Positions 12,352 to 64,000 of a stretch of DNA of 64,000 nucleotides are shown here, one piece after another. The position numbers and the translations under genes were made by a program. Location: NCBI RefSeq assembly GCF_016093295.1, contig NZ_JAEDAL010000007.1, positions 62,001 through 126,000 of the forward strand, in the 5' to 3' direction. The notes under the pieces were generated by a model, which did not search any database, was not told where the DNA came from, and was given only the letters and a program-made list of their open reading frames with translations. How positions within the stretch are numbered: the first letter of the stretch is position 1; each line of letters starts with the position of its first letter. Source of the stretch: Inhella gelatinilytica (GTDB taxonomy: Bacteria > Pseudomonadota > Gammaproteobacteria > Burkholderiales > Burkholderiaceae_C).

Positions 12352-14406
12352 ATGTCAGAAACCACTGCAGCACCCGCGGGCGAATGGGTGCAATTTGAGG
12401 GTTCTCCCTTTCAGTTGCACCAACCGTTTCCGCCCGCCGGTGACCAGCCGCGCGCGATTGAGCAGTTGGTTGAAGGCCTACAGGATGGGCTGACTTACCA
12501 GACCCTGTTGGGGGTGACGGGATCGGGCAAGACCTTCACCATGGCCAACGTGATCGCTCGCATGGGGCGACCGGCTATCGTGTTTGCCCACAACAAGACG
12601 CTGGCTGCCCAGCTCTACAGCGAGTTCCGTGAGTTCTTTCCCAAGAACGCCGTTGAATATTTCGTCAGCTATTACGACTACTACCAGCCGGAGGCGTACG
12701 TCCCACAGCGGGACTTGTTCATTGAAAAGGACAGCGCCATCAACGAGCAAATCGAGCAATTGCGCCTGTCGTGCACGAAGAGTTTGCTCGAGCGGCGGGA
12801 CGTGGTCATCGTGGCATCGGTTTCAGCCATCTATGGCATTGGCAATCCGAGCGACTATCACCAAATGGTCATGACCCTGCGAATCGGCGACACCCTGGGT
12901 CAGCGTGACCTGATTGCGCAGTTGGTGCGGATGCAATACAGCCGCAACGAACTGGAATTCACGCGGGGGCATTTCCGCGTTCGCGGCGACACGGTGGACG
13001 TCTTCCCGGCCGAACACTCGGAATTGGCGCTGCGCATCGAGCTGTTCGACGACGAGGTCGAAAGCATGAGTCTTTTCGATCCTTTGACGGGGCGGGTTCA
13101 GCAGAAGTTGGCCCGGTTCACGGTGTATCCGAGCAGCCATTACGTGACGCCACGGGAGCGTGTTTTGGCGGCCCTGGAAACCATCAAAGAAGAACTGCGC
13201 CAGCGTGTCGGGGAGTTTCTGAAGGACGGCAAATTGGTGGAGGCCCAGCGGATTGAGCAGCGCACCCGGTTTGACATCGAGATGCTTCAGGAAGTCGGGC
13301 ACTGCAAGGGTATTGAAAACTACACACGGCACCTCAGCGGGGCTGCGCCGGGTGATGCCCCGCCGACGCTCGTGGACTACTTACCGGCTGACGCCTTGAT
13401 GTTCATCGACGAGAGCCACGTCACCATCGGGCAGTTCGGGGCCATGTACAACGGGGATCGGGCACGCAAAACGACTTTGGTGGAGTATGGATTTCGCCTG
13501 CCTTCAGCACTTGATAACCGCCCTCTGAAGTTCGAAGAGTTTGAGCGCAAGATGCGCCAGGCGATCTTTGTTTCGGCAACACCGGCGGACTACGAGAAGC
13601 GTCAAGCTGGACAAGTTGTCGAGCAGGTGGTGCGGCCGACGGGGTTGGTCGATCCCGTGGTGCAGGTTCGACCAGCCACTCATCAAGTGGACGACCTGCT
13701 CAGCGAGATTCGCAAATGCGTTGACGTGCAGGAACGGGTGCTTGTGACGGTGCTCACCAAGCGCATGGCCGAGCAGTTGACCGATTACTTGCACGAAAAC
13801 GGCGTCAAAGTTCGCTACCTGCATTCCGATGTGGACACGGTGGAGCGTGTGGAGATCATCCGCGACCTCCGCCTGGGGACCTTCGATGTGCTGGTCGGGA
13901 TCAATCTCTTGAGGGAAGGCCTTGACATTCCCGAGGTTTCACTGGTGGCCATCCTGGATGCCGATAAAGAAGGCTTTCTGCGCAGTGAGCGCAGTCTGAT
14001 TCAGACGATTGGGCGGGCGGCCCGCCACCTTCACGGCCAGGCCATTCTGTATGCCGATCGCATGACGGACTCGATGCGACGGGCGCTCCAAGAGACCGAA
14101 CGTCGTCGCACCAAACAGTTGGCGTTCAATGCGGAGCACGGCATCACGCCGCGCGGTGTTGCCAAACGGGTGCGGGACTTGATTGACGGCGTGGTGTCGG
14201 ATCGGGGGCGCGATGTCGCGGCAGCGCCTGTGGTCCCAGGCGTCGAGGGCTTGAGTGAAAAAGAACTCGGCCGGCGCATTCAGCAACTTGAGCGCCAGAT
14301 GCTGGAACACGCCCGCAACCTGGAGTTCGAGCAGGCAGCACGACTGCGGGATCAATTGGCGCAATTCAAAGAGCAAATGTTGGGTGCCAGCAAGAGAGAT
14401 GCCTAG
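12352..14406 (+). CDS. uvrB: Excinuclease ABC subunit B
   Basis: The damage-verification helicase of nucleotide excision repair, 684 residues. It shows Walker A ([10 protein letters not shown]), the beta-hairpin region with [12 protein letters not shown], the DESH box ([13 protein letters not shown]), helicase motifs V-VI ([25 protein letters not shown]) and a C-terminal UVR domain ([23 protein letters not shown]) that contacts UvrA/UvrC. It is divergent from phaZ across 149 bases. I looked for a LexA-type CTG-N10-CAG operator in that gap and did not see one. Confidence 0.97.
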
Positions 14407-51621: not shown

Positions 51622-53142
51622 TCAACGCGGCCTGAGCTCATAGACAAAGGCCGGTGACTGAGCCGATTGGCCGGCAGGGTGCTCCCCAGGCAGCCAACTT
51701 CGAAGGTATTCGACACGTGCAAGATCAGGCTCTACGGTGACGCGGATGCGCCCCGAATTGGGCAGGCGGTCACCACTGCGGTAGCGGTCGAAGAAGTAGG
51801 CGGCGTAGTTGGGATCGGCCGGCTCAGGTGCGGTTTGGTAGGTCACGCCGTCGAGTTCCTGCCGCACAAACACGTGGTCGTGGCCTTGGAAGAAGGCCGT
51901 CACGCCGTGCTTCACAAAAAGCCCGTGGATGGGCAGGGGCCAACCGGGGCGTCGCTGGGCGAACTCGTCGCGGCCTCGCGGGTCCTTGCCGCCCCACTCG
52001 TAGAGGCCGGCCATCTCCACCCCGCCGCGCCCAGTGCCCAGCACGTGGTGGGCAAAGACAAACTTGAAGCGGGCCGAGCTGCTGGCCAAGGTCTCGGCCA
52101 GCCAGCGGTACTGCGCCTCTCCCAGGGTGATGGCCCAGAGGTCCCGCTTGCCTTTGAGCGCCGCACCCGGCCCTTCGGCGGAGTCGCCGGCGGGGCGTCC
52201 GCCTCCGGCCTTGTCGCGATGGCCCAGCGGGTTGTCCACGGTCTGGGGGCTGTGCCAGTAGGGATCGATGATGACGAACAGCGCGTCCCCCCAGGTCCAA
52301 GCGTGGTAATCGCGAAGCAAGCCAATGTGTTCCACCGGCGTGGTGTTGCCGCTGTAAAACGCGTTGGGGGCGGGGAGGGGGAAGAGGCGGTTGCGCGCCG
52401 TTTGCGCCCAGACGGCGACGTTGTGAGGGCTGCCGTCGAGATTGGCCCTCGAGGCCTGCTCGTGGTTGCCATTTACCAAGAAGAGCGGGGCGGTTTGCCC
52501 AACCAGGGCCAAGAAGGGGCGCTGGAGTTGGTAGCGCTGCGCCACGGTGGCGGCGGTGCGCTCGGGCAGGGTGTCGACGCTGAAGTCATCCCCGAGGGTG
52601 AGATAGAAGTCCGGCCGATCCGCTGCCGCCGCGCGCAGGGTTTGGGCGTAGAGCTCCGGATGGAACTGATGGCCGCGCTCGGGGTGGGAGTCGCCTTGCA
52701 ACTCGAACACGAAGCGGCTGCCGGGTGCCCGTTGGGTGTGGAAGCTGTGCTCCGCACCCATCCGCGAGGGCCCTTGGGCGTTGGGCCGCAACAGCACCCG
52801 GTAGCGGTAGGCCTGATTGGGCGCGAGATCGGCCAATTCCACTTCCTGGGGTACCGCGCCCGTGAGTCGCAGCCAGGGGCCGCTCACCCAATCCTGGGCG
52901 TGAGCTGGTCGGTGCTGCACCTGGGCTTCCGTGTCGGATTGGCTGAGCAGGCTGAGGGCGATGGAGTGCGCCGTCGGGCGGCCCAAGATCACGCTGAACC
53001 GCTCCAGCTCAACCACATCTGCGGGCAGGGCGAGGGCCGTGCGCGCCCCCTGGCGGCGCGGCTTCTCGTCTTGGGCGGTGCCGAGCAGGGGGGCGAGCAG
53101 GAGCAGGCCGACGGCCCAGCGGCAGGTGGAGAGGGTGCTCAT
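51622..53142 (-). CDS. Secreted metallophosphatase, type A (purple-acid-phosphatase-like)
   Basis: A 506-residue exported protein and the last gene of the four-phosphatase operon. A signal peptide (VGLLLLAPLLGTAQ) without lipobox is followed by a beta-rich N-terminal domain (about 45-140, RFSVILGRPTAHSIALSLL) like the fibronectin-type domain of purple acid phosphatases. The calcineurin-type core has metal ligands in ELQGDSHPE (Asp151, His153), TLGDDFSVD, VNGNHEQ, FAHHVLG and QGHDHVF. It shares GDSHPER and GDDFSVDTL with the first gene of the operon, so the two are one paralogous type. Start ATG overlaps the previous stop (ATGA). Substrate unknown. Confidence 0.85.
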   Translation of the reverse strand: MSTLSTCRWAVGLLLLAPLLGTAQDEKPRRQGARTALALPADVVELERFSVILGRPTAHSIALSLLSQSDTEAQVQHRPAHAQDWVSGPWLRLTGAVPQEVELADLAPNQAYRYRVLLRPNAQGPSRMGAEHSFHTQRAPGSRFVFELQGDSHPERGHQFHPELYAQTLRAAAADRPDFYLTLGDDFSVDTLPERTAATVAQRYQLQRPFLALVGQTAPLFLVNGNHEQASRANLDGSPHNVAVWAQTARNRLFPLPAPNAFYSGNTTPVEHIGLLRDYHAWTWGDALFVIIDPYWHSPQTVDNPLGHRDKAGGGRPAGDSAEGPGAALKGKRDLWAITLGEAQYRWLAETLASSSARFKFVFAHHVLGTGRGGVEMAGLYEWGGKDPRGRDEFAQRRPGWPLPIHGLFVKHGVTAFFQGHDHVFVRQELDGVTYQTAPEPADPNYAAYFFDRYRSGDRLPNSGRIRVTVEPDLARVEYLRSWLPGEHPAGQSAQSPAFVYELRPR

Positions 53143-54566
53143 GGGGTGCGCGGGGTGACGTGGAAGGCGTGCAACACCTGACCGGGTCGGGCGGCGCTGA
53201 GGTAATGCACGTTCAGTTGGTCGGGGCTGACGAGGACTTTGAGAATGCCGGCGTCGCCACGGATCACGCCCTCGCGGTAGCCATAGGCATCGCCCTCGTG
53301 TCGGTCACCCGGATGACCGGGTTGGGGCACTTCCAGGTACACGATGCCATCGCGCTGCTGGTAGGCATAGAGGTGGTCGTGGCCGTGCAGCACCAGGTTC
53401 ACGCCCGTGCGCACCAGCAGAGTGTGGATGGGCTCCTCCCAGCCGGGGCGCTGCTGGGCAAAGCCCGGGCTGCCATCGGCGTTCAGGCCGCCCCACTCGC
53501 CATAGGGCACGGCCTCGGCGCCACCGCGGCCTTGGCGATCGGCACCCCCCACCAGTTGGTGCACGAACACCAGCTTGTGGCGTGCCCGGCTGCGCTCCAG
53601 CGTGTCTCGCAACCAGCGGTACTGGGGCTCACCCAGCGTGAGGTCCCAGCGCTCTTCACCACGCTTGGCGCTGCCGTGCCAATAGGGGTTGAGCACGACG
53701 AAGAGTGCGTCGCCCCAGGTCCAGGCGTAGTAGTCCTGCAGCGGGCCCGCATGGCGGTCGGGTTGCGAATTGCCGCTGTAGAAGCCATCGGGCTCCGGGT
53801 TGGGGAAGTGGCGCTTGCGCAGTTGATTGGCAAAGACGGCGAGGCTCTCGGTGCCGCTGCGCAAGAGCTTGCGGTCTTCGCCGTCGTGGTTGCCGAGCAC
53901 CAGAAACAGCGGCACGCCCAGTTGCCCGAAGTAGTGCCGCTGTTGCAGGTACTGCTGGGCGGCCGCTACGCGGTTGGCGTGCTTGTCGACCATGAAGGTG
54001 TCCCCCAGGTCGATGTGAAAGTCCGGCGCGGCGGCACGCGCCTGGCCCAGCGCCCGTTCGTACAGCGCCGGGTCGGTGTTCTGGTCGAGGTGCGTGTCAG
54101 CGCTGACCGTGAAACCAAAGGTCTTGCCGGCGGGGAGTGCGGTGCGGAAGTGCCCGCTGGCCAGCGGGTGCCCATCGGCATCGCTCAGGGTGTAGCGGTA
54201 GGCGCGATGCGGTGCCAAGTCGGTCAGCACCAAGGGCTTGGGGTCCCCCTTGACCAGACGCAGGACGTGATGGGTGTCCATCGGGCTGCCCTGGGGGCCG
54301 TGGCGCCAATGCACCTCGACATCGCGCCGGTGGGACAACACCAGGGCCGTGACGCCGCGCAGGTCCGGGCGCCCCAAGATGACGTCCACGTCCGGTTGCG
54401 CGACAAAGGGGGCGGGTTGGTGTGGGGGCCCTTGGCGCTTGCGCGTGTCGCCGCCGTCGGGCTGCGCGAGCGCGAAGCCCGTCAGGGCCAAGCCGACGAG
54501 GGCGCTGACACCCCACACCAGGCGTCTCAGGCTGCGCAGGGCGGGGATCAGGGTGTCACGGTCCAT
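53139..54566 (-). CDS. Secreted metallophosphatase, type B
   Basis: A 475-residue exported protein. The N-terminus has a positive region (RDTLIPALRSLRRLVW) and a hydrophobic core (GVSALVGLALTGFALA), most likely a cleaved signal peptide with no lipobox. The PAP-like N-terminal domain (VDVILGRPDLRGVTALVL) is followed by the core with ligands in TVSADTHLDQ, DLGDTFMVDKH, VLGNHDGED, FVHQLVGG and LHGHDHLYA. It shares ADxHLD and GDTFMxxKH with the second gene of the operon. The first 19 bases overlap the end of that gene and the stop overlaps the next start, so translation is coupled on both sides. Confidence 0.85.
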   Translation of the reverse strand: MDRDTLIPALRSLRRLVWGVSALVGLALTGFALAQPDGGDTRKRQGPPHQPAPFVAQPDVDVILGRPDLRGVTALVLSHRRDVEVHWRHGPQGSPMDTHHVLRLVKGDPKPLVLTDLAPHRAYRYTLSDADGHPLASGHFRTALPAGKTFGFTVSADTHLDQNTDPALYERALGQARAAAPDFHIDLGDTFMVDKHANRVAAAQQYLQQRHYFGQLGVPLFLVLGNHDGEDRKLLRSGTESLAVFANQLRKRHFPNPEPDGFYSGNSQPDRHAGPLQDYYAWTWGDALFVVLNPYWHGSAKRGEERWDLTLGEPQYRWLRDTLERSRARHKLVFVHQLVGGADRQGRGGAEAVPYGEWGGLNADGSPGFAQQRPGWEEPIHTLLVRTGVNLVLHGHDHLYAYQQRDGIVYLEVPQPGHPGDRHEGDAYGYREGVIRGDAGILKVLVSPDQLNVHYLSAARPGQVLHAFHVTPRTP

Positions 54567-56137
54567 CGGTCGTCCACTTGGCCATTGCGGCGGGTGCTGG
54601 TTTCTTGGCTGGGTAGCCAGGCCCTCACGTACTCGCTGGTGACGCCGCTGGGGCCGACACTCACGCGCAAATGGCCCGAGCTGCTTTGAATGGTGCCAGA
54701 GTTGTAGTGGTAGTCACGCGCCAGCGTTGCGCCGCTGGAGAAGTTCACGGCGCTGGGTTGGGGCACGGCTTGGTACACCACCCCGTCCAATTGCTGTTTC
54801 ACGTAGAGGTGGTCGTGTCCGTGAAACACGGCCGACACCTTGTGCTGCACCAGCAGGGTGTGGATGGGCACACCCCAACCGGCGCGGTGGGTCGCAAAGC
54901 CTTCGCTGCCGTCGGCGTTCTTGCCCCCCCATTCGTAGAAGGGGGCCGCCTCGATGCCGCCGCGCATTTGGCCGTCCAGGCCGCCGACCAGGTTGTGGAT
55001 GAAGATGAACTTGTATTTGGCGGTGCTGCTGGCCAGGGTGTCGGCCAGCCAGCGGTACTGGCGTTCCCCCAGCGTGAGGTTCCAGCCATCCTTGCTGGCC
55101 TGCGCACGGCTGTTCCAGTAGGGGTCGAGGGTGATGAACAGGGCGTCGCCCCACGTCCATGCGTAGTAGGCGGCTCGTGCGCCGACCAGGGGGTCGGGCA
55201 GGGTGTCGCCGCGGTAGAAGATGCCCGGCTGGGGGTTGGCAAAGTAGCGCTGCCGGGCCTGGGTGGCCCACACAGGTAGGTTGCTGGGGCTGTTGCTGGG
55301 CGCGAGCCAGCCCAGCTCGCCTTCGTGGTTGCCGTTCACCAAGAAGAGCGGCACGGAGTGGCTGATGGCACCGAAATTGGTGCGCTCGTACACGTAGCGA
55401 CGGTTCACCACCTCGGGGCTGTCGGCGTCGTCGACCAGGGCCACCAGGGGGTCGCTGTGCTTTTCCGTCATGAAGGTGTCGCCCAAGTCGATGTGGAAAT
55501 CGGGGCGGTCCGCCAGCACGTTTTGCAGGGTGCGCTGGTACACCGGCAGGCTGGAGTTCTCGTCCAGGTGCGAGTCCGCTTGAAGGGTGAATACAAACGA
55601 GCTGCCCGGCCCGCGGGCGGTGTGGAAGCGCGCCTCACCAGTGGTGCTGGCGGCGCCCGCACCCGTCGCCAGGAATTGCACCTGATAGCGGTAGTCCGTG
55701 TCGGCGCTCAGGCCGGACAGGCTGATTTCCAGCGGGACGCCCGGCTGCAAGGCGCTGCTGGCCGTCTGCTGCAGGGCCCCAGCGTTGGCGGGCCCGTAGG
55801 CCACGCTGATTTGGCCGGACTGGGTGGCGGAGAGCAGCTTGAGCGTGATGGTGCTGAGCGTGGGTGCGCCGAGCAGGACCGTGCCATCGAAGGCAGCCGA
55901 CGGTGCCGGCGCGGGAGCAGGTGTGGGCGCGGGAGCGGGCGCGGGTGCTGGAGCCGGGCTGGGCGCAGGTGTGGGTGCCGGAGTGGGTGCAGGCGCTGGA
56001 GTAGGCGCGGGTGCGGGTGTCGGCGCAGGCACCGGAGCGGGTTCGGGCGCGGAACTGCCCCCACCGCCGCCACAGGCCAGCAGGGCAAGCAGCAGTGGGG
56101 TGGCGCTCAAGGCGCGCATGCGGGTGGTGGTGGTCAT
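54548..56137 (-). CDS. Lipoprotein metallophosphatase, type B, on a Pro/Ala stalk
   Basis: A 529-residue protein with a lipobox (LLALLAC, Cys22), then glycines and a Pro/Ala stalk at about residues 30-79. Next come the PAP-like beta domain (FDGTVLLGAPTLSTITLKLL) and a phosphatase core with ligands in LQADSHLDENS, DLGDTFMTEKH, VNGNHEGE, FIHNLVGG and FHGHDHLYV. It is the lipid-anchored counterpart of the following type B protein. ATG 56137 is chosen because it gives a perfect lipoprotein signal and overlaps the preceding stop (ATGA); the frame extends open to 56305 but has no sensible N-terminus there. Confidence 0.86.
   Translation of the reverse strand: MTTTTRMRALSATPLLLALLACGGGGGSSAPEPAPVPAPTPAPAPTPAPAPTPAPTPAPSPAPAPAPAPAPTPAPAPAPSAAFDGTVLLGAPTLSTITLKLLSATQSGQISVAYGPANAGALQQTASSALQPGVPLEISLSGLSADTDYRYQVQFLATGAGAASTTGEARFHTARGPGSSFVFTLQADSHLDENSSLPVYQRTLQNVLADRPDFHIDLGDTFMTEKHSDPLVALVDDADSPEVVNRRYVYERTNFGAISHSVPLFLVNGNHEGELGWLAPSNSPSNLPVWATQARQRYFANPQPGIFYRGDTLPDPLVGARAAYYAWTWGDALFITLDPYWNSRAQASKDGWNLTLGERQYRWLADTLASSTAKYKFIFIHNLVGGLDGQMRGGIEAAPFYEWGGKNADGSEGFATHRAGWGVPIHTLLVQHKVSAVFHGHDHLYVKQQLDGVVYQAVPQPSAVNFSSGATLARDYHYNSGTIQSSSGHLRVSVGPSGVTSEYVRAWLPSQETSTRRNGQVDDRWTVTP
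55901..56050 (-). repeat. DNA encoding Pro/Ala repeat stalk of the type B lipoprotein
   Basis: About 150 bases of degenerate six-base units (Pro-Ala dipeptides with scattered Thr, Ser, Val) encode residues 30-79. The PAPAPTPAP pattern gives an extended, protease-resistant linker that could hold the enzyme away from the membrane. Confidence 0.85.
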
Positions 56138-57738
56138 GGCAGGCGGTAGCTGAAGGCGGTGGAGCCGTGGACACGGGTGGCGGATTCGTCGCGCTGCAGG
56201 TACGAGCGAACGTAGTCCACCTGCACGCCGTCTGGGGCGACCCGCACACGCGTGTAGCCGCTGTTGGGGAACTTCTCGCCGCTTGCGTAGGCGTCGGCGT
56301 TCCACAGGGTGTAGTTCGGGTCGGCCGGCTCGGAGACGGTCTGATAGGTCACGCCGTCCAGCTTTTGCCGGACCCAGATGTGGTCATGCCCCTGAAAGAA
56401 GATCGTCACGCCGGTGCGGGCCATCAGACGGTGGATGGGCTCGGTCCATGTGGGGCGCTTCAGGGGGAAGTCAAACTGACCGTTGGCGCTTTCGCCGCCC
56501 CACTCCCACTGTTTGGCGAGCTCGATGCCACCACGGCCTGTGCCCATCACGTGGTGCGCAAAGACGAACTTGTAGCGGGCCCGGCTGCCCTCCAGCGTGC
56601 GCTGCAGCCATTGGTACTGGGCGTCGCCATGGCTCACATCCCACATGTTGCTGCGCTTGTCCGAGCCGCCAAACACGTTGTCCACTGCGACGGGGGAGTG
56701 CCAATAGGGGTCGATGACCACGAAGAGTGCGTCGCCCCAGGTCCATGAGAAGTAGTTGCGCAGCAAGCCGATGTGCGGCACAGGGGTGGGGTTGCCGCCG
56801 TAGAACCCATCCGGGGCCGGTTGCGCATAGAGGCTGTTGCGGGCGTTCTGCGCCCACACCGCCACGTTGTTGGCTGTGCCATCGAGCAGGTAACCCGCGG
56901 CTTGTTCGTGGTTGCCATTGACGAGGAAGAGCGGGGCTTGGCGGCCGATCAGGCCCAGGTAGGGGCGCTGCAGGGTGTAACGCTCCCGTACTTTGGCGGA
57001 GTCGATGGTGGTGGGGTCCAGCGTGTCGACGCTGAAGTCGTCCCCCATGAGCACGTAGAAGTCGGGCTGGTCGGCCGCGGCCGTTGTCAGGGTGCGCGTG
57101 TAGAGGTCCGGATCGAACTGGGACTTGAGCCGCTCGGGGTGCGAGTCGCCCTGCAGGGCGAACGTGAAGCTGCTGCCGGCGGGGCGCGCAGTCATGAAGC
57201 TGGCTTCGTCACCAGGAGCGCCCGCCGTGCCGTCGGTGGGCCGGAAGTAGAGGCGGTAGTAGTGGCGCGTGTTGGCGCTCAGCCCGGTCAAGGCGATCTC
57301 AAGCGGCTGCCCCGCCTGCAGAGGCTGGGCCGCTGTTTGGGTGTCGAGCGCACCCGAGCGCGTGCCGTAGGCCAGCCACACCGTGCCCGACTGATCGGGT
57401 GCGTAGACGTTGGCTTTGATGCCACTGTCGGTCGGCGAGCCCAACACCACGTTGCCGCGGAAGCTGCTGGTGCCGGGCGCCGGCGCTGGATTGGGTGCCG
57501 GTGCGGGGCTGGGTGCCGGAGCTGGGCTTGGCGCAGGAGCCGGAGCCGGAGCCGGACTGGGTGCGGGCGTGGGGGCTGGAGCCGGGCTCGGCGCGGGGGC
57601 TGGCGTGGGCACAGGCACGGGCGCTGGGCTCTCGGCCGAGCCACCGCCGCCGCAAGCACTCAAGACCAGCAGAGCCGCCCCCAGGCTGGCCCAGCGCGGG
57701 GAGGGTTTCGGGTGGCGAGGGGGGCGACGCATGGGCAT
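56134..57738 (-). CDS. Lipoprotein metallophosphatase, type A, on a Pro/Ala stalk
   Basis: First gene of the four-phosphatase operon, 534 residues. A basic N-terminus and hydrophobic core lead to a lipobox (LVLSAC, Cys29), followed by a Pro/Ala stalk (about 38-89). The PAP-like domain is FRGNVVLGSPTDSGIKANVY; the core ligands are in LQGDSHPERL, LMGDDFSVDTL, VNGNHEQA, FAHHVMGTG and FQGHDHIWV. It is the lipid-anchored partner of the last gene of the operon. ATG 57738 has AAGGAA four bases upstream; a TTG at 57759 is possible but poorer. A CusR-like box and -10 element lie upstream. Confidence 0.87.
   Translation of the reverse strand: MPMRRPPRHPKPSPRWASLGAALLVLSACGGGGSAESPAPVPVPTPAPAPSPAPAPTPAPSPAPAPAPAPSPAPAPSPAPAPNPAPAPGTSSFRGNVVLGSPTDSGIKANVYAPDQSGTVWLAYGTRSGALDTQTAAQPLQAGQPLEIALTGLSANTRHYYRLYFRPTDGTAGAPGDEASFMTARPAGSSFTFALQGDSHPERLKSQFDPDLYTRTLTTAAADQPDFYVLMGDDFSVDTLDPTTIDSAKVRERYTLQRPYLGLIGRQAPLFLVNGNHEQAAGYLLDGTANNVAVWAQNARNSLYAQPAPDGFYGGNPTPVPHIGLLRNYFSWTWGDALFVVIDPYWHSPVAVDNVFGGSDKRSNMWDVSHGDAQYQWLQRTLEGSRARYKFVFAHHVMGTGRGGIELAKQWEWGGESANGQFDFPLKRPTWTEPIHRLMARTGVTIFFQGHDHIWVRQKLDGVTYQTVSEPADPNYTLWNADAYASGEKFPNSGYTRVRVAPDGVQVDYVRSYLQRDESATRVHGSTAFSYRLP
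57472..57627 (-). repeat. DNA encoding Pro/Ala repeat stalk of the type A lipoprotein
   Basis: About 156 bases of six-base Pro-Ala units with interspersed Ser, Thr and Asn encode residues 38-89. The unit order differs from the type B stalk, so the two stalks have expanded or shuffled independently. Confidence 0.85.
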
Positions 57739-57781: not shown

Positions 57782-57787
57782 ATGCTA
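57782..57787 (-). promoter_or_regulatory. Predicted -10 element for the phosphatase operon
   Basis: TAGCAT on the minus strand, exactly 21 bases downstream of the ATGAC-N6-GTCAT box at 57809-57824 and 44 bases before ATG 57738. The same 21-base spacing to a TAGATT occurs upstream of the LTxxQ lipoprotein. Confidence 0.55.
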
Positions 57788-57808
57788 GGAACCCTGGCCC
57801 TTGGGTGA

Positions 57809-57824
57809 ATGACAAGTGCGTCAT
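57809..57824 (-). promoter_or_regulatory. CusR/CopR-like inverted-repeat box (phosphatase operon side)
   Basis: ATGACAAGTGCGTCAT on the plus strand: perfect ATGAC/GTCAT arms with a six-base centre. The left arm ATGACAA equals half of the enterobacterial copper box recognised by CusR. Placed just upstream of the -35 region, as for an activator. Confidence 0.6.
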
Positions 57825-57835
57825 GGAACCGTCGG

Positions 57836-57851
57836 GTGACAGCCTTGTCAT
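57836..57851 (+). promoter_or_regulatory. CusR/CopR-like inverted-repeat box (Ala/Lys-rich gene side)
   Basis: GTGACAGCCTTGTCAT: one base of the left arm differs from ATGAC and the right arm TTGTCAT is perfect. It starts 27 bases after the start of the previous box and lies 21 bases before TGCAAT (57873-57878), a possible -10 for the gene at 57915. Confidence 0.55.
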
Positions 57852-57872
57852 CCGCCCGGCGGCATGACGGGT

Positions 57873-57878
57873 TGCAAT
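57873..57878 (+). promoter_or_regulatory. Predicted -10 element for the Ala/Lys-rich protein gene
   Basis: TGCAAT, 21 bases after the box at 57836-57851 and 36 bases before ATG 57915. It is a weak -10 by itself; the spacing shared with two other promoters in the segment is the main support. Confidence 0.45.
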
Positions 57879-57914
57879 GAGGCTGTCCCGTCAACCTCAG
57901 CCGTAGGAGGCACC

Positions 57915-58226
57915 ATGCACCGATTCCACGTCATTCCATCCATCCTGCGCGCGGCCGGCCTCGCGCTGTCATCTGCACTCCTGCTCTGTGCCCCGGCGGT
58001 GGCCAAAGACGCCAAGCCCGCGGTGGCGGAGGCCAAGCAACAACTCGAGGCCGACAAGGCCCGCCTGCGCGCCGACAAGGCCGCGGGCAATCGGGCGGCA
58101 GTGGCGGCCGATCGCGCAGCGTTGCAGCGGGACAAGGCGCAATTGCAGGCTGCGCGCTCGGCGGCAAAGGCCGATCAGGCGGCCGGCCGAGCCAAGCCGA
58201 GCCAGCGCGCGGCCAGTGCGCCTTGA
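57915..58226 (+). CDS. Ala/Lys-rich periplasmic coiled-coil protein
   Basis: A 103-residue protein with a Sec signal peptide (LALSSALLLCAPAVA, cleavage before KDAK) and a mature part of about 73 residues that is almost all Ala, Lys, Arg, Asp and Gln. It reads as one long amphipathic helix with related units: ADKARLRADKAAGNR, AADRAALQRDKAQLQ, AARSAAKADQAAGR. No catalytic motif. Start ATG 57915 follows GGAGG at good spacing. It is divergent from the phosphatase operon across a region with two CusR-like boxes. Function unknown; small helical periplasmic chaperones or metal buffers look similar. Confidence 0.75.
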   Translation: MHRFHVIPSILRAAGLALSSALLLCAPAVAKDAKPAVAEAKQQLEADKARLRADKAAGNRAAVAADRAALQRDKAQLQAARSAAKADQAAGRAKPSQRAASAP

Positions 58227-58246
58227 CGGGGGCTGAGAGCCTTTTG

Positions 58247-58288
58247 CGCGGCCGACCGAAAGGGGGCGATGCCCCCGAGCCGGCCGCG
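58247..58288 (+). other. Long GC-rich composite hairpin
   Basis: Outer arms CGCGGCCG (58247-58254) and CGGCCGCG (58281-58288) enclose an inner hairpin GGGGGC/GCCCCC (58262-58267 with 58271-58276). No T tract follows on either strand, so it is not a standard terminator, though it could still end or protect the 57915 transcript. Confidence 0.6.
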
Positions 58289-58371
58289 TGTGCACTTGCT
58301 GGGTTCGTCCATTCGCCGTTGGGTTGGCCTGTCTGCCGGCCCCGGGCGGATCGGATGCTCGGTCGGCTGAC

Positions 58372-58387
58372 ATGACCGAAGTGTCAT
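58372..58387 (+). promoter_or_regulatory. CusR/CopR-like inverted-repeat box (duplicated-motif gene)
   Basis: ATGACCGAAGTGTCAT: perfect ATGAC/GTCAT arms. No convincing -10 is seen 21 bases away on either strand, so its target promoter is less clear than for the other copies. The next gene downstream starts at 58536. Confidence 0.5.
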
Positions 58388-58535
58388 CGTCGGGTGGGCG
58401 GCCTGAGAGAGAGTGCTCGATGCCGGGGTGAGGACCTCCCTTTGGGAGACGGTCATCGCTTCGGTACCGCTCGGACGCCCAGTGCGGTGGGTCGGATCCG
58501 GTCGTGATTTTCAATAGCTCAACCAGGAGACTCAC

Positions 58536-58967
58536 ATGCTGAACGTCAATGCAAGCCCCTCACCTGCGCTGGATGCCTCAAGGCAAGCGCCTCGGCAGCC
58601 GCCGCTGAGTCCCGAGAAACGGGCCGAGGTCTTTGCCGTCTTGGAGAAGTACGACGCCAACGCCCTCAGTGGCAGCGATGTGGAGGCGATCAAGAAGGCC
58701 TTTTCGGCGGCGGGGATCCAAAGAGGCCCCGCGCTGCGCGAGGCGATCGCTTCCGCGGGCTTCAATCCTGCCGATCTGCACCCGGAGAGAACCGAGGCAG
58801 GGCCCGCGCCTCGTCCGGCCAATCTGGAACAACTGCAGACGCTGAAAGACATTCTGGGCGGCTATGACTTGGCGAATCTGAGCGCCGACGATCGGTCGGC
58901 CCTGGTCCAGCGACTGAAGGAGGCTGGATGGGACAGACCGGGCTCGATCATCCATCGGTCGGCATAG
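58536..58967 (+). CDS. Hypothetical protein with a tandem helix-loop motif
   Basis: A 143-residue protein with no signal peptide or membrane segment. Two internal repeats are visible: VLEKYDANALSGSDVEAIKK (about 36-55, continuing AFSAAGIQRG) and ILGGYDLANLSADDRSALVQ (continuing RLKEAGWDRPG) near the C-terminus. Each has YD-x-x-x-LS-x-x-D and ends AG-x-x-R-x-G. The YDANALSGSD stretch looks like an EF-hand loop with residues deleted, so canonical calcium binding is not expected. A Pro/Glu-rich linker joins the repeats. AGGAGA five bases before ATG 58536 supports the start. Not recognised as a named family. Confidence 0.65.
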   Translation: MLNVNASPSPALDASRQAPRQPPLSPEKRAEVFAVLEKYDANALSGSDVEAIKKAFSAAGIQRGPALREAIASAGFNPADLHPERTEAGPAPRPANLEQLQTLKDILGGYDLANLSADDRSALVQRLKEAGWDRPGSIIHRSA

Positions 58968-58986
58968 GCTTTGCCGCAAGAGTCAG

Positions 58987-59010
58987 GGCGCGCTTTCGAG
59001 CGCGCCTTTC
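58987..59010. terminator. Bidirectional terminator between convergent genes
   Basis: GGCGCGC (58987-58993) pairs with GCGCGCC (59000-59006) around TTTCGA, with TTTCC on the plus-strand 3' side. It lies between the stops at 58967 and 59014. Confidence 0.65.
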
Positions 59011-59013
59011 CAT

Positions 59014-60795
59014 TCACGGGGCGGCAAAGAAGCGGTCGTTGTTGGCCAGGTAGGGCACCAACACCGTGCTGTCTTTGATGGGCTCGGCATAGAGGTAGGC
59101 TGTTGCGGCCCCCGAGAAGTCAAACGCGGTTCCGTCCGCATAGCGGCCCGACAGGATGGTCTTGCGCAGGGCCGTGAGCTTGGTCTTCTGTTCCGCGCTG
59201 AGCGAGTTCTTAACGGCCGCGAAGACGGTGGCATAGGCGTGGTTGTTGGCGCCGTCGAGATCGCCATACCGGGCCGAAAGTTCCTGCACGCGCGCTTGAA
59301 CGGTTTGTGGTGAGGTGCGGGGATCCTGAAGCGAACGCAACAAGGTGGCGATCTCGGTCCGCACCTCCACGATGTTCGCCCCCGGGGTGCCGTACAAATG
59401 GCCACGCTGGCGATCGACCAGGCTGGACATCAGCTGGGCCTGCGTGGGGTTCACGTAGCCCAAGCCGGCATCGACCAGCACGGCCCCTGCGGTGGCTGTG
59501 AGTTGTTCGTCGATGCTGTAGCCCTCGTGCCCGATGGCAGGGGCGTCCTTGATGTAGAACGAGCCGAAATAGGTGCCGTGCCGCTCGGGACAAAAGTACA
59601 CATCAGCCGCCAGGGAACCGGCCCACCAGCTGTAGAGATCGCTTGCATAGGTCATGACAGCCACGGCGGTTCCAGCGGGAAGTCCTTGCAGCTTGTTGCG
59701 CACCTGTGCGTCCGTGACGTCCGGCCAGGAGGACCAGCCCTTGCCTTTCATTGCCGCCAAGTAGGCCAGTTGCGTGGCATCGAGCGAGCGCAGGATGTCG
59801 GCGTACAAAACCGCGCGGTCGAAGGCGATTTGCCCGTCCAAGAGATACAACTCACGCGAGGCCGTTTGAACCGCCGCCAAATTCAGACCGGGGCTGCCCA
59901 GGGGCAAGTCGCCATCGGCCAGTCGTCGGAAGGCTTTCATCAGTGCGAAGCGGCGCAGTCCGTACTCGTTGCTCAGGGGCAATTGCGCTGCGGCGAGCGC
60001 CTTGAGTTTGGCGAGCTGCTCGTCCTTCAGGATGAACAACAGGTTGTTGGCGATGCGCGTGAGAAAGCTGGTGTTGTGACCCATGTTGTCTGGGTCGTTG
60101 TCGCGCAGGTACTGGAAGCCGGTGTAGTCGGCCACCTTGCCGGGTGGGAAGAACGACTGCGCCTCGAGATTGCCGGTCAGCAGGGCCAAGCCTGCAAAGG
60201 CCAGGGTGGTGCGTTGCGCCCCGTCGGACAGGGTTTGCGCCATCGTGAATTGCGCGCTGGGGTCGTCGCAGGGCATTGCCCTGGCGCCGGTCAGTTCGAA
60301 TTGCAGCGTGGGTGCCGCGCGCTGGGTGAGTTCGACGTTGAAGCAACGGCTGTCGGCCCCCATGACCACGCGCAAGCCGGTGAGTGTCAGCAGCCCCGTG
60401 GCGGCATCAAACCCACCCCACGCCGGCAGGGGGTTGGCGCAGGAGCGGGCGGTGGCGGAGGTGACTTCCAGGCGGTAGGTGGGGGCGGTGGACAGGGTGC
60501 GCAAGCTGGCGTCGTAGCAGGTGCGGCCTCCCTCGATGTTGACCGGAACGCCCGTGAGCGACAGCATGCCGCTGAGGCTGTCATAGGTGGGTGTTGTGTC
60601 AATTGCCGCGGAAGGCTGGGCGATCGGGGCGGCGGGCTGAACGGCGACCGAAAGGGGCTGACGGTGCGATTCGCTCGCTGTTGCGGAGAGCTCCTCGCCA
60701 CCGCCACCGCAGGCCGGTAGGCAGGCCGCCACAGCAAGGACGCAGACGCGGTGCTGCCGAGGGATGGACGCTGATTTCGAATGGGAGGGCCACAT
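59014..60795 (-). CDS. Large LTxxQ-motif lipoprotein with duplicated cysteine-pair domain
   Basis: A 593-residue protein with a lipobox (AACLPAC, Cys29). Residues about 70-176 hold two tandem copies of a small beta domain of the form (Y/F)D-x-x-(S/T)G-x-L-x-LTG, each with two cysteines (93/119 and 151/176). The remaining 400 residues match the protein encoded at 60948-62240 and carry four LTxxQ-like motifs: LKDEQ (256), LDATQ (338), VNPTQ (448) and LSAEQ (532). A YFCPERHGTYFG core lies near residue 400. LTxxQ motifs mark CpxP/Spy-type periplasmic proteins, though those are much smaller. ATG 60795 gives the lipoprotein signal. Function unknown. Confidence 0.7.
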   Translation of the reverse strand: MWPSHSKSASIPRQHRVCVLAVAACLPACGGGGEELSATASESHRQPLSVAVQPAAPIAQPSAAIDTTPTYDSLSGMLSLTGVPVNIEGGRTCYDASLRTLSTAPTYRLEVTSATARSCANPLPAWGGFDAATGLLTLTGLRVVMGADSRCFNVELTQRAAPTLQFELTGARAMPCDDPSAQFTMAQTLSDGAQRTTLAFAGLALLTGNLEAQSFFPPGKVADYTGFQYLRDNDPDNMGHNTSFLTRIANNLLFILKDEQLAKLKALAAAQLPLSNEYGLRRFALMKAFRRLADGDLPLGSPGLNLAAVQTASRELYLLDGQIAFDRAVLYADILRSLDATQLAYLAAMKGKGWSSWPDVTDAQVRNKLQGLPAGTAVAVMTYASDLYSWWAGSLAADVYFCPERHGTYFGSFYIKDAPAIGHEGYSIDEQLTATAGAVLVDAGLGYVNPTQAQLMSSLVDRQRGHLYGTPGANIVEVRTEIATLLRSLQDPRTSPQTVQARVQELSARYGDLDGANNHAYATVFAAVKNSLSAEQKTKLTALRKTILSGRYADGTAFDFSGAATAYLYAEPIKDSTVLVPYLANNDRFFAAP

Positions 60796-60826
60796 GGCTG
60801 CGCTCGTGTGTAGTCTGGATGCGTCC

Positions 60827-60832
60827 AATCTA
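60827..60832 (-). promoter_or_regulatory. Predicted -10 element for the LTxxQ lipoprotein gene
   Basis: TAGATT on the minus strand, exactly 21 bases downstream of the box at 60854-60869 and 31 bases before ATG 60795. In both minus-strand promoters the -10 begins TAG and is preceded by CC. Confidence 0.55.
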
Positions 60833-60853
60833 GGCCGGTGCACCTGCGAGACG

Positions 60854-60869
60854 ATGACATCGGCGTCAT
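60854..60869 (-). promoter_or_regulatory. CusR/CopR-like inverted-repeat box (LTxxQ lipoprotein)
   Basis: ATGACATCGGCGTCAT: perfect ATGAC/GTCAT arms, in the short gap between the two LTxxQ paralogues, 58 bases before the lipoprotein start. Confidence 0.6.
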
Positions 60870-60947: not shown

Positions 60948-62240
60948 TCAGCGTTTGTCCGCGCCAAAGAAGCCCTCGGTCCTTGTCGCTTCCGCCATCC
61001 CTGCGGCATCCAACGGCGCGGCATACAGGAACGGGCCCTTGGGGTCGCGCGGGTCGTGGGGGCTGCGGGCGCGCAGCTGCTGCAGCGCGCTGCGTTGTGC
61101 GGGGTTGAGGTCCTGCCCCACCCGGGCGAAGGCTTGCACGTACAGGTACGCCAATTCACCGTCCAGTTCGCCGTAGCGGCGCGAAAGGGTCTGGACCCTT
61201 TGCGCGTCGGGGCGCTCGCCAACCAGGAAACGCCGCAACTCATGCGCGATCTCGCGCCGCACCGACGCAATCTCTTGCAACTGGGCGCGCTGGCGGTCGG
61301 GCAGGGCCTCGATCAGCGCGCGTTGGGTGGGGCTGAGCAGGGTGAGGAAGTCGGCGCCGGAGTCGCCCGTGAGCGCTGTGCTGATGGAGAAGTCTTGCTT
61401 GCCAAGGGCTGGCGCGGTCTTGAGACCAAAGCCGCCGAAGTACATGGCGTGGCGTTCGGGGCAGAAGTAGGTGTCGGCCTCCAGGCTGCCCCCTTGCCAG
61501 GCAAAGAGCTCGCTGGCGTGGGTCATCATCGCCACGTCCAAGTCGTGGGGCAGGCTGCGGCGCTCTGCGGGGTCGGGTGCATCGGGCCAGGTGCGTGAGT
61601 CGCCGAATTTCAGGCGGGCCAATTGCGCTCGCTGATCGGCGCTCAGGCCCTGGATGACTTGGCCCATGGCGTCGGCACGGGCCCATGCGATCCGACCGTC
61701 GAGTTCATACAAGGCCGCGGAATGGGCAACAACGGCGGCACGACTCAAAGGGGCCTTGGCGGCCGGGCCGCTGCGCTCCAGGGTTTGGCGGAAGGCCTGG
61801 ATCAACGGCAGGCGCAACAGGGCGAAGCGTCGGACATCGGCTTGCTGCTGCTTGGCCGCCTCGATCAATTGGGCACGCTGTGCCGGCGTCAAGATGGCCA
61901 GGGTGTTGAAGGCGATCCGCGTCAGAAAGGCCGGGCTGTGGCCTCCCTGCACGGCATCGATGTCGCGCATGTATTGAAAGCCGAAATAGTCCGAGACCTT
62001 GCCCGGGGGCAGAAAGGTGTCCGCCGCAAAGTCGCCTGTCAAAAACGCCAAACCGCTGAACGCAATGGTGTGGAGTTGGGCGCGATCCGACATGGCTTGC
62101 TGCAGCGAATAGCGCTGTGCGCCCTCACGCGGGGAGCGGGGTCGGTCGCCGTCCCGCGGTGGGCGGCGCTGTTCCGCCGGCGGCTCGCCGCGCGGCGGTG
62201 GGGCGTCGTTGGCGTGGAGGCCGGTGCTGAGGCTCAGCAA
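60948..62240 (-). CDS. Exported LTxxQ-motif protein (paralogue of the 593-residue lipoprotein)
   Basis: 430 residues from the only conventional start in reach, TTG 62240. Shared with the lipoprotein are FLPPGKVSDYFGFQYMRD, FLTRIAFNTLAIL and YFCPERHAMYFGGFGLKTAP; four LTxxQ-like motifs are at LTPAQ (117), LSADQ (199), LSPTQ (302) and LNPAQ (378). The start is a problem. The hydrophobic segment YTCTAWLLLSLSTGLHA that should be its signal peptide begins upstream of 62240, and that region has no in-frame ATG, GTG or TTG back to the TGA (62301-62303) of the preceding gene, which is in the same frame. An unusual start codon or a sequence error is likely. Confidence 0.65.
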   Translation of the reverse strand: MLSLSTGLHANDAPPPRGEPPAEQRRPPRDGDRPRSPREGAQRYSLQQAMSDRAQLHTIAFSGLAFLTGDFAADTFLPPGKVSDYFGFQYMRDIDAVQGGHSPAFLTRIAFNTLAILTPAQRAQLIEAAKQQQADVRRFALLRLPLIQAFRQTLERSGPAAKAPLSRAAVVAHSAALYELDGRIAWARADAMGQVIQGLSADQRAQLARLKFGDSRTWPDAPDPAERRSLPHDLDVAMMTHASELFAWQGGSLEADTYFCPERHAMYFGGFGLKTAPALGKQDFSISTALTGDSGADFLTLLSPTQRALIEALPDRQRAQLQEIASVRREIAHELRRFLVGERPDAQRVQTLSRRYGELDGELAYLYVQAFARVGQDLNPAQRSALQQLRARSPHDPRDPKGPFLYAAPLDAAGMAEATRTEGFFGADKR

Positions 62241-62300: not shown

Positions 62301-62873
62301 TCAAAAGCGGAAGAGGGGCGGTTTCTCCGCGGGGGCGCTGCGCACCCAGCGTTGCTGGGGTTCGTAGTGCACCACCAGCACGCGCGGCAGTTCGGGGGGC
62401 AAACGCAGTTGAACGGCGGCCGTGGGGGCTTTGGACAGCCACTCCGCGCTCACCTCCAGGGTCTGGCCGTGTGCGTGGTCATGTGGGGCCACGACCGACT
62501 GCATGGCGCGTTGCTGGATCAGCGTTTGCACCCGGCTGGGCGTGGGCCATTGCCATTGTGTGGGGGCTTGCCAAGCGCCCTGGGCGGGTGCCAATTGGGT
62601 GCTGCTCTGGATCCGGAGCTGCAGGCGTTCAAACTGTGTGCGGAAGGCGGCGGCATCCAGCGCCGCCGTCTGGACGAGGAACTCCGCATCGCTCAACTGC
62701 GGTGCGAGGCTGCGGTGCATAAGGCTGACGAGGTCCATATGGAAGCGCAGGCTCACCTGCTGCGGGTGGCGCCGTACCAGGGTGAGACGGTCCGCCTCCA
62801 TCTCGTGGGCCTGTGCCGCACTGGACCCAAGCCCCACGATCAGCAGCCAGAGACAAACCATCCAGAACTTCAT
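62301..62873 (-). CDS. Small exported protein of unknown function
   Basis: A 190-residue protein with a clear signal peptide (MKFWMVCLWLLIVGLGSSAAQA, here mainly LWLLIVGLGSSAAQA, cleavage before HEMEADR). The mature part has RFHMDLVSLMHRSLAPQLSD, an internal HDHAHG, and ends PPLFRF; the His-rich HEME and HDHAHG parts could bind metal, which is speculation. ATG 62873 has GAGGAG about nine bases upstream. It lies between the YHYH-protein gene and an LTxxQ gene, in the same frame as the latter. No family recognised. Confidence 0.65.
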   Translation of the reverse strand: MKFWMVCLWLLIVGLGSSAAQAHEMEADRLTLVRRHPQQVSLRFHMDLVSLMHRSLAPQLSDAEFLVQTAALDAAAFRTQFERLQLRIQSSTQLAPAQGAWQAPTQWQWPTPSRVQTLIQQRAMQSVVAPHDHAHGQTLEVSAEWLSKAPTAAVQLRLPPELPRVLVVHYEPQQRWVRSAPAEKPPLFRF

Positions 62874-62893
62874 GACGCTTCTCCTCGGTCGCA

Positions 62894-64000
62894 TCAGCGG
62901 CAGTAGGTGATGGTGGGCTGCGTGGGGGTGCCTGCGCCGCTGGTGAACTGGAAGTTCCAGCAGGCGGACTTGCCCTTGTTGGCGGTTTGGGCGAGCAGTG
63001 TCTCCAAGGCTGCACCGGCGAGGCGCTGGTAGCGAATTCGATAGGTGCCCGGTCCGTTGGCATAGCTGTCACTGCCCGTTTCCGTGGTGGTGAAGCTGCG
63101 TGCGCTCGTGAACTGCAGCACTTGGTAGCCATCTGACGGATCTTGGGTCAGTGTCATTTGCGACACACCAAAGGGCGTCACCGGGGGCTGGCGCATGGGG
63201 CTGAACTTGGCGCTCTGTCCGGCCAGGTCCGGGCTGGGGGTGCCGCGGAAGCACGAGAGCACGTAGGGCGACGCGTCGGTCACGTGGTAGCTGTAGCCAG
63301 CGGGACCATTGCTCACTGGGTTGGTGTTGCCGCCGCACACACCGTCGCGTTGTGCCGGTGAGCCATCGGCGTTGTTGTAGCCGTAGATGGCAAAGCCATC
63401 CAGCGCCCAGCCCAGCGGGTGCGTGTCCCAATAGCTCGCGGGCTTGGTGGCCATCAGGCAGACGGGGGCGGCGTGGTAGTGGTAGTCGTCCGCCCGGCCC
63501 GCGTGGCCGTTGCAGACGTCCAGTTCGCCCAGCACCTTGGTGTCGCCGTTTTGGCAGCCGCCTTGCTTGCAGGGGTTGAAGATGGGCACACCGTTGATGG
63601 CCATGCCGATCGGGCCGTCCACGGCCGACGTGGAGGTGGCGGCCACGGCCGGGTTCAGGGGAATGCGCCAGGCCTTGGTGCCGTAGAAGTTTTGCGCAAT
63701 GGGGACTTGCAGGTTGGTGGCCGTGATGCCGTCCATCATGGTGTGGCTCGTCAAGCCGTCCGAGCCTATGTAGGCGTAGCTGGCGTCGCAACCCACCGTC
63801 GGGCGCCCGGTGGTGGAAACCGCCACTGAATTGCGCACCAGCGCACAGGGTGCGGTGCTGCCGCTGGAAGCGGCGGTTCTGGCATAGCTCAGATTGAGCG
63901 TGGCCTTGCCCAAGGTCAGGGGCGCCAGCGCGGCCTCCAATTGGGCGCCCGTGACGGGCCCGCTGGCCAGGGTCGGGCTGGCGGACAGCGCGTACAGCGT
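62894..64000 (-). CDS. YHYH domain-containing exported protein (N-terminus outside window)
   Basis: The frame is open to the window end, so at least 368 residues are present and the start is missing. The YHYH signature is intact in GRADDYHYHAAPVCL, with GWALDGFAIYGYNN downstream, the two hallmarks of the YHYH family. Ten or so cysteines (GCD, NPCKQGGCQNG, DVCNGH, DGVCGG, LSCF, SACWNF, TYCR) point to an extracytoplasmic, disulfide-bonded protein. The biochemical function of YHYH proteins is not established. Its stop is 21 bases before the start of the small exported protein, so the two are probably cotranscribed. Confidence 0.8.
   Translation of the reverse strand, partial: TLYALSASPTLASGPVTGAQLEAALAPLTLGKATLNLSYARTAASSGSTAPCALVRNSVAVSTTGRPTVGCDASYAYIGSDGLTSHTMMDGITATNLQVPIAQNFYGTKAWRIPLNPAVAATSTSAVDGPIGMAINGVPIFNPCKQGGCQNGDTKVLGELDVCNGHAGRADDYHYHAAPVCLMATKPASYWDTHPLGWALDGFAIYGYNNADGSPAQRDGVCGGNTNPVSNGPAGYSYHVTDASPYVLSCFRGTPSPDLAGQSAKFSPMRQPPVTPFGVSQMTLTQDPSDGYQVLQFTSARSFTTTETGSDSYANGPGTYRIRYQRLAGAALETLLAQTANKGKSACWNFQFTSGAGTPTQPTITYCR

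Follow-up and report, generated by a model that had tools for sequence, protein, structure and literature searches.

Boxes and genes at the locus

The 64,000-nucleotide (nt) stretch analyzed here (the window) corresponds to positions 62001–126000 of contig C21 in the 3.52-Mb genome of Inhella gelatinilytica, and a window coordinate equals the C21 coordinate minus 62000. Near its right end lies a gene cluster whose promoter regions carry copies of the inverted repeat ATGAC-N6-GTCAT (the box), and whose products are mostly secreted, several having metal-dependent or metal-binding folds. A preliminary description had reported four boxes, three exact and one with a GTGAC left arm (57836–57851), and a −10-like hexamer (TAGCAT, TGCAAT, or TAGATT) exactly 21 nt from three of the four. 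Positions and distances were all reproduced; the box at 58372 has GAGAGT at that distance. The boxes indeed stand at the promoters it had named, but the cluster is larger than it had described and continues through the YHYH operon to a regulator gene. No regulator gene is present in the window, as it had noted, yet a search for a CusRS/CopRS-like pair near a box found one 0.6–2.7 kb past its right edge, preceded by a box. The features are listed below; C21 coordinates denote positions beyond the window.

57809–57824, minus strand: box (ATGACGCACTTGTCAT on the minus strand) serving the phosphoesterase operon; −10-like TAGCAT at 57782–57787
57836–57851, plus strand: box with one mismatch (GTGAC...GTCAT) of the divergent Ala/Lys-rich gene; −10-like TGCAAT at 57873–57878
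58372–58387, plus strand: exact box preceding the gene of a 143-amino acid (aa) helical protein; weak −10 (GAGAGT at 21 nt)
60854–60869, minus strand: exact box preceding the gene of a 593–609-aa lipoprotein; −10-like TAGATT at 60827–60832
C21:126561–126576, minus strand: exact box of the PEBP-YHYH gene; TAGCAT 21 nt on
C21:128741–128756, minus strand: exact box of the response regulator gene; CCCAAT 21 nt on
51622–57738, minus strand: presumed operon of four calcineurin-like metallophosphoesterases (PF00149 in all four; two with Pro/Ala linkers)
57915–58226, plus strand: Ala/Lys-rich protein of 103 aa with a signal-like N-terminus; no Pfam or NCBIfam match
58536–58967, plus strand: 143-aa protein; no Pfam or NCBIfam match
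59014–60795, minus strand: lipoprotein, paralogue of the 430-aa protein (both match the same places in related loci); no Pfam match
60948–62240, minus strand: 430-aa protein, presumed last gene of the YHYH operon; orthologues in genomes G003, G002, and G115
62301–62894, minus strand: p197, a 197-aa Ang-1-like metal-binding candidate; presumed mature N-terminus His
62894–64000, continuing to C21:126492, minus strand: PEBP-YHYH fusion lipoprotein, cut by the right edge of the window
C21:126611–128014, minus strand: histidine kinase gene, downstream of the regulator gene
C21:128014–128706, minus strand: OmpR-type response regulator gene

The PEBP-YHYH protein scores above the Pfam gathering thresholds for PF14240 (68.6 vs 25 bits) and PF01161 (61.4 vs 24 bits). 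The YHYH domain has been described as enigmatic, with metal-dependent hydrolase activity as its predicted function, according to the part of the source available (PMC7824862). The 430-aa protein shows a weak LTXXQ/Metal_resist similarity below the cut-off (PF07813, 19.8 bits against a gathering value of 24.3). No efflux or metal-detoxification gene was found among the scanned cluster proteins (those of 51.6–64 kb in the window plus the products of the regulator, kinase, and YHYH genes); the target set thus points to metals, but without an efflux gene in the cluster.

Box frequency and promoter architecture

Allowing at most one mismatch, the window contains five sites against 1.17 expected, the fifth (at 12857) being away from the cluster, and at least five sites occurred in 2 of 100 shuffles. 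Because this excess is moderate, the whole genome and its relatives were examined. A full-genome scan, a check that the preliminary description had proposed, gave nine exact boxes in 3.52 Mb, five of which fall within about 9 kb (C21:119809–128756), while a reversed-order pattern had no exact site. Of the other four, three fall within genes clearly recognized by Pfam (disulphide reductase, threonine dehydratase, and H+ pyrophosphatase), and the fourth, at C20:153840, was judged intergenic, with a MacA/HlyD-like gene on one side and a divergent reading frame lacking Pfam matches on the other. The genome contains 106 sites when up to one mismatch is allowed, so that single-mismatch boxes alone mean little; the comparison of this number with the 26 sites of the reversed pattern was not used, since that pattern differs in base-step make-up. 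More stringent controls were available from 11 YHYH loci that contain the regulator gene. There, a spacer of 6 gave 21 matches, whereas each other spacer from 0 to 12 gave none or one, and permuting the half-site in 59 ways reduced the 21 matches to a mean of 0.15.

The boxes are also held at a fixed distance from a −10-like hexamer. Among 64 oriented flanks of 32 exact boxes, 17 have TANNNT exactly 21 nt away and 3 have it 22 nt away, with 0–2 at any other distance between 5 and 44 nt. A further 20 promoters (regulator, Ala/Lys-rich, 143-aa, and one phosphoesterase) were selected manually; 14 of them have the weaker hexamer NNNAAT 21 or 22 nt from the box, against a mean of 0.4 at other distance pairs. 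The composite ATGACN6GTCATN21TAGCAT has seven matches in 399 genomes of the family, all in this cluster and distributed over four genomes, while the control has none. In G003, G002, I. crocodyli, L064, and Pelomonas, the corresponding phosphoesterase gene is also preceded by box-N21-TAGCAT (two with a one-mismatch box; G and L numbers are our labels for genomes and loci), and the Ala/Lys-rich gene has TGCAAT, CCCAAT, or TCTAAT at 21 nt in four other loci. The excess of boxes is modest in the window alone but strong genome-wide, and the 21-nt spacing is conserved across species.

No good −35 element was found in 22 promoters chosen for TANNNT at 21 nt, the best match being 2.8 of 6 positions against 2.3 for random sequence. 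Of 22 promoters, 20 retain the inner T of the promoter-proximal half of the box, and 7 have A as its distal counterpart. Because the box adjoins or replaces the −35 at a fixed distance to the −10, the layout is that expected of a class II activator. In I. gelatinilytica and I. proteolytica, seven bases separate CCCAAT from the regulator ATG; the regulator mRNA may therefore be leaderless.

Occurrence of the box with the regulator gene in relatives

Within Inhella, the regulator gene (E ≤ 1e-90) and the YHYH gene are present in the same four of six genomes, and the orthologues are 81, 70, and 67% identical to the I. gelatinilytica regulator. Four more regulator loci were found among 200 genomes of the family (E ≤ 1e-70), and all eight loci carry exact boxes. 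In this survey at least 7 of the 200 genomes were positive, a lower bound because at most 14 candidates were scored per genome and G003 was not drawn. A PEBP-YHYH alignment scan of named genomes yielded 357 relatives, from which 79 loci spanning Burkholderiales, other Proteobacteria, Acidobacteria, Gemmatimonadota, and a few more groups were kept. An exact box was present in all 11 YHYH loci with a regulator orthologue (53–81% identity) but in only 3 of 68 without (Fisher p = 4e-11, uncorrected for shared ancestry); with loci restricted to those of at least 10 kb, the numbers were 11 of 11 and 3 of 54. Moreover, in 13 of 15 distinct regulator loci a box lies within 450 nt before the regulator gene or before a small gene preceding it. 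Conservation in relatives, which the preliminary description had named as a check, was thus borne out: the boxes and the 21-nt spacing are kept and track the regulator gene across species.

A phosphoesterase gene lies behind a box, in some cases with one mismatch, in 8 of the 15 regulator loci (that of I. gelatinilytica, G003, G001, G002, G115, L064, L068, and L081), and orthologues of the Ala/Lys-rich gene lie behind a divergent box in four other loci (G003, G002, G001, and L064).

PEBP-YHYH and p197 genes are also adjacent in stretches of acidobacterial, gemmatimonadotal, and Leptospiraceae metagenome-assembled genomes (MAGs; L084, L087, L107, L128, L132, and others), where no such regulator was found. 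The pair may therefore predate control by the regulator.

The regulator, the kinase, and p197

The regulator consists of a receiver domain (PF00072, 83.8 bits) and a winged-helix Trans_reg_C domain (PF00486, 93.4 bits). The preliminary description had assigned the boxes to a regulator of the CusR/CopR/IrlR subfamily. In favor of this, the best NCBIfam models of the pair are TIGR01387 and TIGR01386 (cztR/silR/copR and cztS/silS/copS), and the regulator closely resembles CusR in its recognition-helix stretch (TN-VVDV---R-R). However, both matches are below the cut-offs: the regulator scores 216.9 bits against a cut-off of 279.2 for TIGR01387, still the best of 99 models, and the kinase 235.1 bits against 292.55 for TIGR01386 (CusS). 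The regulator is 47.6% identical to IrlR, 43% to HprR, 42% to CusR, and 39% to PhoB. A tree of 21 regulators unites the five named or metal-linked members apart from PhoB (support 95/98), with the 15 orthologues outside them; because 10 of its 18 inner branches are left open and PhoB sits on a long one, the tree supports only a separate group.

Relatives of the 143-aa protein are encoded directly before the regulator gene in three genomes, G100, G176, and G049 (e.g., L050:17406–17684), and this small protein may therefore act in signalling.

The shape of the box had been compared with that of the CusR copper box, and E. coli MG1655 does have the same box form before cusC, but the box does not prove copper. 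CusR (copper) and HprR (oxidants) of E. coli share one recognition sequence, as stated in the part of PMC9302797 available, and the box consequently marks the subfamily, not the signal. We therefore rejected the reading of a copper signal from the box alone.

A clue to the signal comes from p197, for which sequence searches gave no solved relative and no Pfam match. Its AlphaFold2 model (mean predicted local distance difference test score, pLDDT, 90.2) matched best the copper-bound Ang-1 structure 9GCE in the Protein Data Bank (PDB), the only Foldseek match with E below 0.001 (3.2e-5; VIA Z 11.0 over 144 residues, root-mean-square deviation 3.7). The zinc-binding ZrgA and PA4063 followed with Z of 7.5–8.1, and unrelated folds did not exceed 5.3. 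His30 is the sole invariant column among 42 relatives (42/42), and the signal peptide is probably cleaved just before it, which would leave a mature N-terminal His. Ang-1 binds copper through its N-terminal histidine, and the related Ang-2, often with metallophosphatase neighbours, also binds copper (PMC12537917, as far as the available text goes). The Ang-1-like fold and the invariant, probably N-terminal His of p197 thus favor a metal signal.

Proposed regulation and alternative explanations

The boxes, their spacing, the gene order, and the co-occurrence with the regulator gene can be read directly from the DNA. They argue strongly that the boxes are operators of a self-regulated two-component system, whose genes stand at one end of this cluster and which would act by class II activation on about six promoters; we hold this reading with high confidence. 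The earlier proposal of a co-regulated set under an OmpR-type regulator is likewise supported by the adjacent regulator/kinase pair, the conserved boxes, and their co-occurrence. From these observations we infer the following scheme, in which binding, activation, signal, operon structure, and product functions are all predicted. Through its PAS-like sensor domain with two invariant cysteines, the kinase would read a signal in the periplasm, for which a transition metal (copper, for example) or a redox change linked to metal is the likeliest candidate. The phosphorylated regulator would then dimerize on the 16-bp inverted repeat ATGAC-N5-TGTCAT, which ends 21 nt (22 in some promoters) before the −10, at the place of the −35, and would thus serve as a class II activator. 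Six promoters would be switched together: those of the regulator-kinase genes (self-activation), the PEBP-YHYH/p197/430-aa operon, the lipoprotein gene, the 143-aa gene, the Ala/Lys-rich gene, and the four phosphoesterase genes. Overall, we regard the cluster as a genuine, conserved, and apparently self-controlled regulon, whose two-component system belongs to the copper-regulator subfamily and which occurs in several bacterial groups. In the open-licence literature searched, we found no description of this system, no link of YHYH with two-component systems, copper, or PEBP, nothing on two-component systems of Inhella, and nothing by box name; the part of PMC10127602 available gives no box sequence.

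Several observations weigh against this scheme. The loci share ancestry, and the counts are not independent events. Regarding promoters, the −10-like TGTAAT of the regulator gene stands at 33–34 nt in G100 (Albitalea), L080, and L088 (the latter two gammaproteobacterial MAGs), and the 143-aa gene has a poor −10. Three YHYH loci, L063 (with a perfect N21-TAGCAT), L117, and L139, have an exact box but no regulator gene in the stretch examined; in L063 and L117 the box lies shortly before the YHYH gene, and a regulator may therefore be encoded elsewhere in those genomes. Conversely, the YHYH gene of L065 and L066 is not preceded by an exact box, although both loci contain the regulator gene with its box. 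The regulator-proximal box has one mismatch in G002 and L081, and in 2 of 15 loci no box, exact or with one mismatch, lies within 450 nt: L068, where only 466 bases upstream were examined, and G176, where the nearest is 1.9 kb away. The sensor lacks any His or Met invariant among 15 sequences, unlike what a CusS-type copper site would need. Finally, the box is shared with two-component systems for metal resistance in this genus, and another regulator could therefore bind too. The last two points lead to the alternatives.

CusS-type sensors carry a His/Met metal site in a PAS-like periplasmic domain. Here, the sensor is predicted to have a PAS/Cache-like fold (pLDDT 88.6) without a discriminating structural match: the model matches WalK, CusS, and many receptors, and CusS (5ku5, Z 6.4) ranks 17th among many PAS/Cache domains. 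The residues invariant in all 15 sensor domains are R41, C43, E45, R48, D65, K69, L70, C130, and W142. Cys43 and Cys130 might accordingly form a redox switch, and the system would then sense oxidants or the thiol-disulphide state, in the manner of an HprRS-like system with a similar box, and not copper. This alternative draws further on HprS (9epn), the second-best PDB sequence match of the kinase core, and on the box shared by HprR and CusR (PMC9302797, in its available part). In contrast, heavy-metal kinases rank first in NCBIfam, the operon encodes the metal-binding candidate p197, and no methionine-sulphoxide repair enzyme was found among the Pfam-scanned cluster proteins, such enzymes not having been searched for elsewhere. 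Taken together, we consider redox sensing in place of copper sensing a possible but rather doubtful explanation.

Another regulator of the subfamily might instead bind the boxes, the adjacent pair being incidental or sharing the sites. Paralogous two-component pairs near RND (resistance-nodulation-division) pump and P-type ATPase genes in G002, G004, and G001 (pump and ATPase identified by Pfam for G002 and G001) do carry ATGACAAATTTGTCAT or ATGACCGATTTGTCAT boxes of their own, and the common recognition sequence of CusR and HprR (PMC9302797, available portion) also speaks for this view. However, boxes in the cluster track the adjacent regulator gene (11/11 against 3/68). In addition, the paralogous promoters of G002 and G001 have their −10-like hexamer 33 nt from the box, not 21, as does E. 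coli cusC (three promoters only), and in G004 the metal pair occurs in the absence of both this regulator and the YHYH gene. Control by such a regulator is thus improbable.

As for chance clustering of a common palindrome, the 2 of 100 window shuffles and the 106 one-mismatch sites speak for it, but the conservation across species, the controls on spacer and half-site, and the constant −10 distance led us to reject it as having a negligible probability, and near-identical copies are excluded as the cause by the 53–81% regulator identity across loci.

Returning to the self-regulated two-component system, it would provide a clue to the function of several poorly characterized secreted families together, namely PEBP-YHYH, p197, the 430/593-aa family, and the Ala/Lys-rich protein, as members of one regulon, and YHYH domain function may now be approached through the gene's own inducible promoter. 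It would also be a natural case of paralogous regulators apparently sharing one operator sequence. More speculatively, a copper-family system may have been redirected from detoxification to a secreted metalloprotein program, in which a cysteine-pair sensor of envelope metal or redox state would control p197 as an N-terminal-His copper binder, PEBP-YHYH as a metallohydrolase, and the four phosphoesterases. Metal capture or loading would thereby be coupled to phosphoester scavenging, and promoter geometry (21 vs 33 nt, about one helical turn) would insulate the system from the metal-resistance regulators with the same box. We regard this extended picture as unlikely to hold in full.

Possible further sites and neighbouring genes

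With at most one mismatch, the composite pattern has five matches in the I. gelatinilytica genome, four in the cluster and one (C20:153813) before the MacA/HlyD-like gene. An exact box (L012:5841–5856, i.e., C20:153840) lies about 70 nt before this gene, which encodes an adaptor of an ABC (ATP-binding cassette) exporter, and among its relatives a one-mismatch box occurs at a similar place in one of four genomes (I. proteolytica only). Outside the cluster, relatives have two such composite matches in G003 (C39 and C41) and two in G004.

Beyond the right end of the window, an XRE-cupin-like regulator gene (L010:16765–17337, minus strand) ends 8 bases before the response regulator box and adjoins a KBL-like gene (identified by eye); both neighbours are present in I. 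proteolytica too.

The same metal-resistance block, consisting of an integrase-like gene (by eye), a P-type ATPase, the two-component pair, and an RND pump, occurs in L146 (G002:C1:2176000–2190000) and L147 (G004:C138:26000–38000). Aligned at a single offset, the two copies share 10,473 of 11,470 bases, even with the first 1.4 kb out of register, which suggests recent horizontal transfer within the genus.

Comparison with known systems

Among the named response regulators compared, IrlR of Burkholderia (plasmid record) is the closest, although IrlR adjoins a CusA/CzcA-type pump. AgrR of Cupriavidus metallidurans binds ATKACANNNNTGTMAT, a 16-bp inverted repeat, with type II activation at most promoters and positive autoregulation according to the available part of PMC7380067, and the repeat ATGAC-N5-TGTCAT presumed here would be its counterpart. 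However, AgrR is tied to silver resistance, whereas the present cluster appears to encode mostly secreted hydrolases and binders. The CusRS system of E. coli has a box, ATGACAATTTTGTCAT, with the same fixed positions, and its regulator has a similar TN..DV...R.R stretch; it differs in that the TAAAGT of cusC lies about one turn further from the box, that CusCFBA efflux is not part of this cluster, and that the sensors here are without invariant His/Met. HprRS of E. coli belongs to the same subfamily, with HprS among the best kinase-core matches, but its box is CATTACAAAATTGTAATG and its targets are hiuH-msrPQ (PMC9302797, as far as available), no such gene being found among the scanned cluster proteins. 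Finally, p197 resembles the Ang-1 domain of HupE/UreJ-2 (9GCE; PMC12537917, available text) in its predicted beta-sandwich, the three helices between strands 2 and 3, and the invariant, probably N-terminal His, but it is a free 197-aa protein without a permease domain and shares 10% identity with it.

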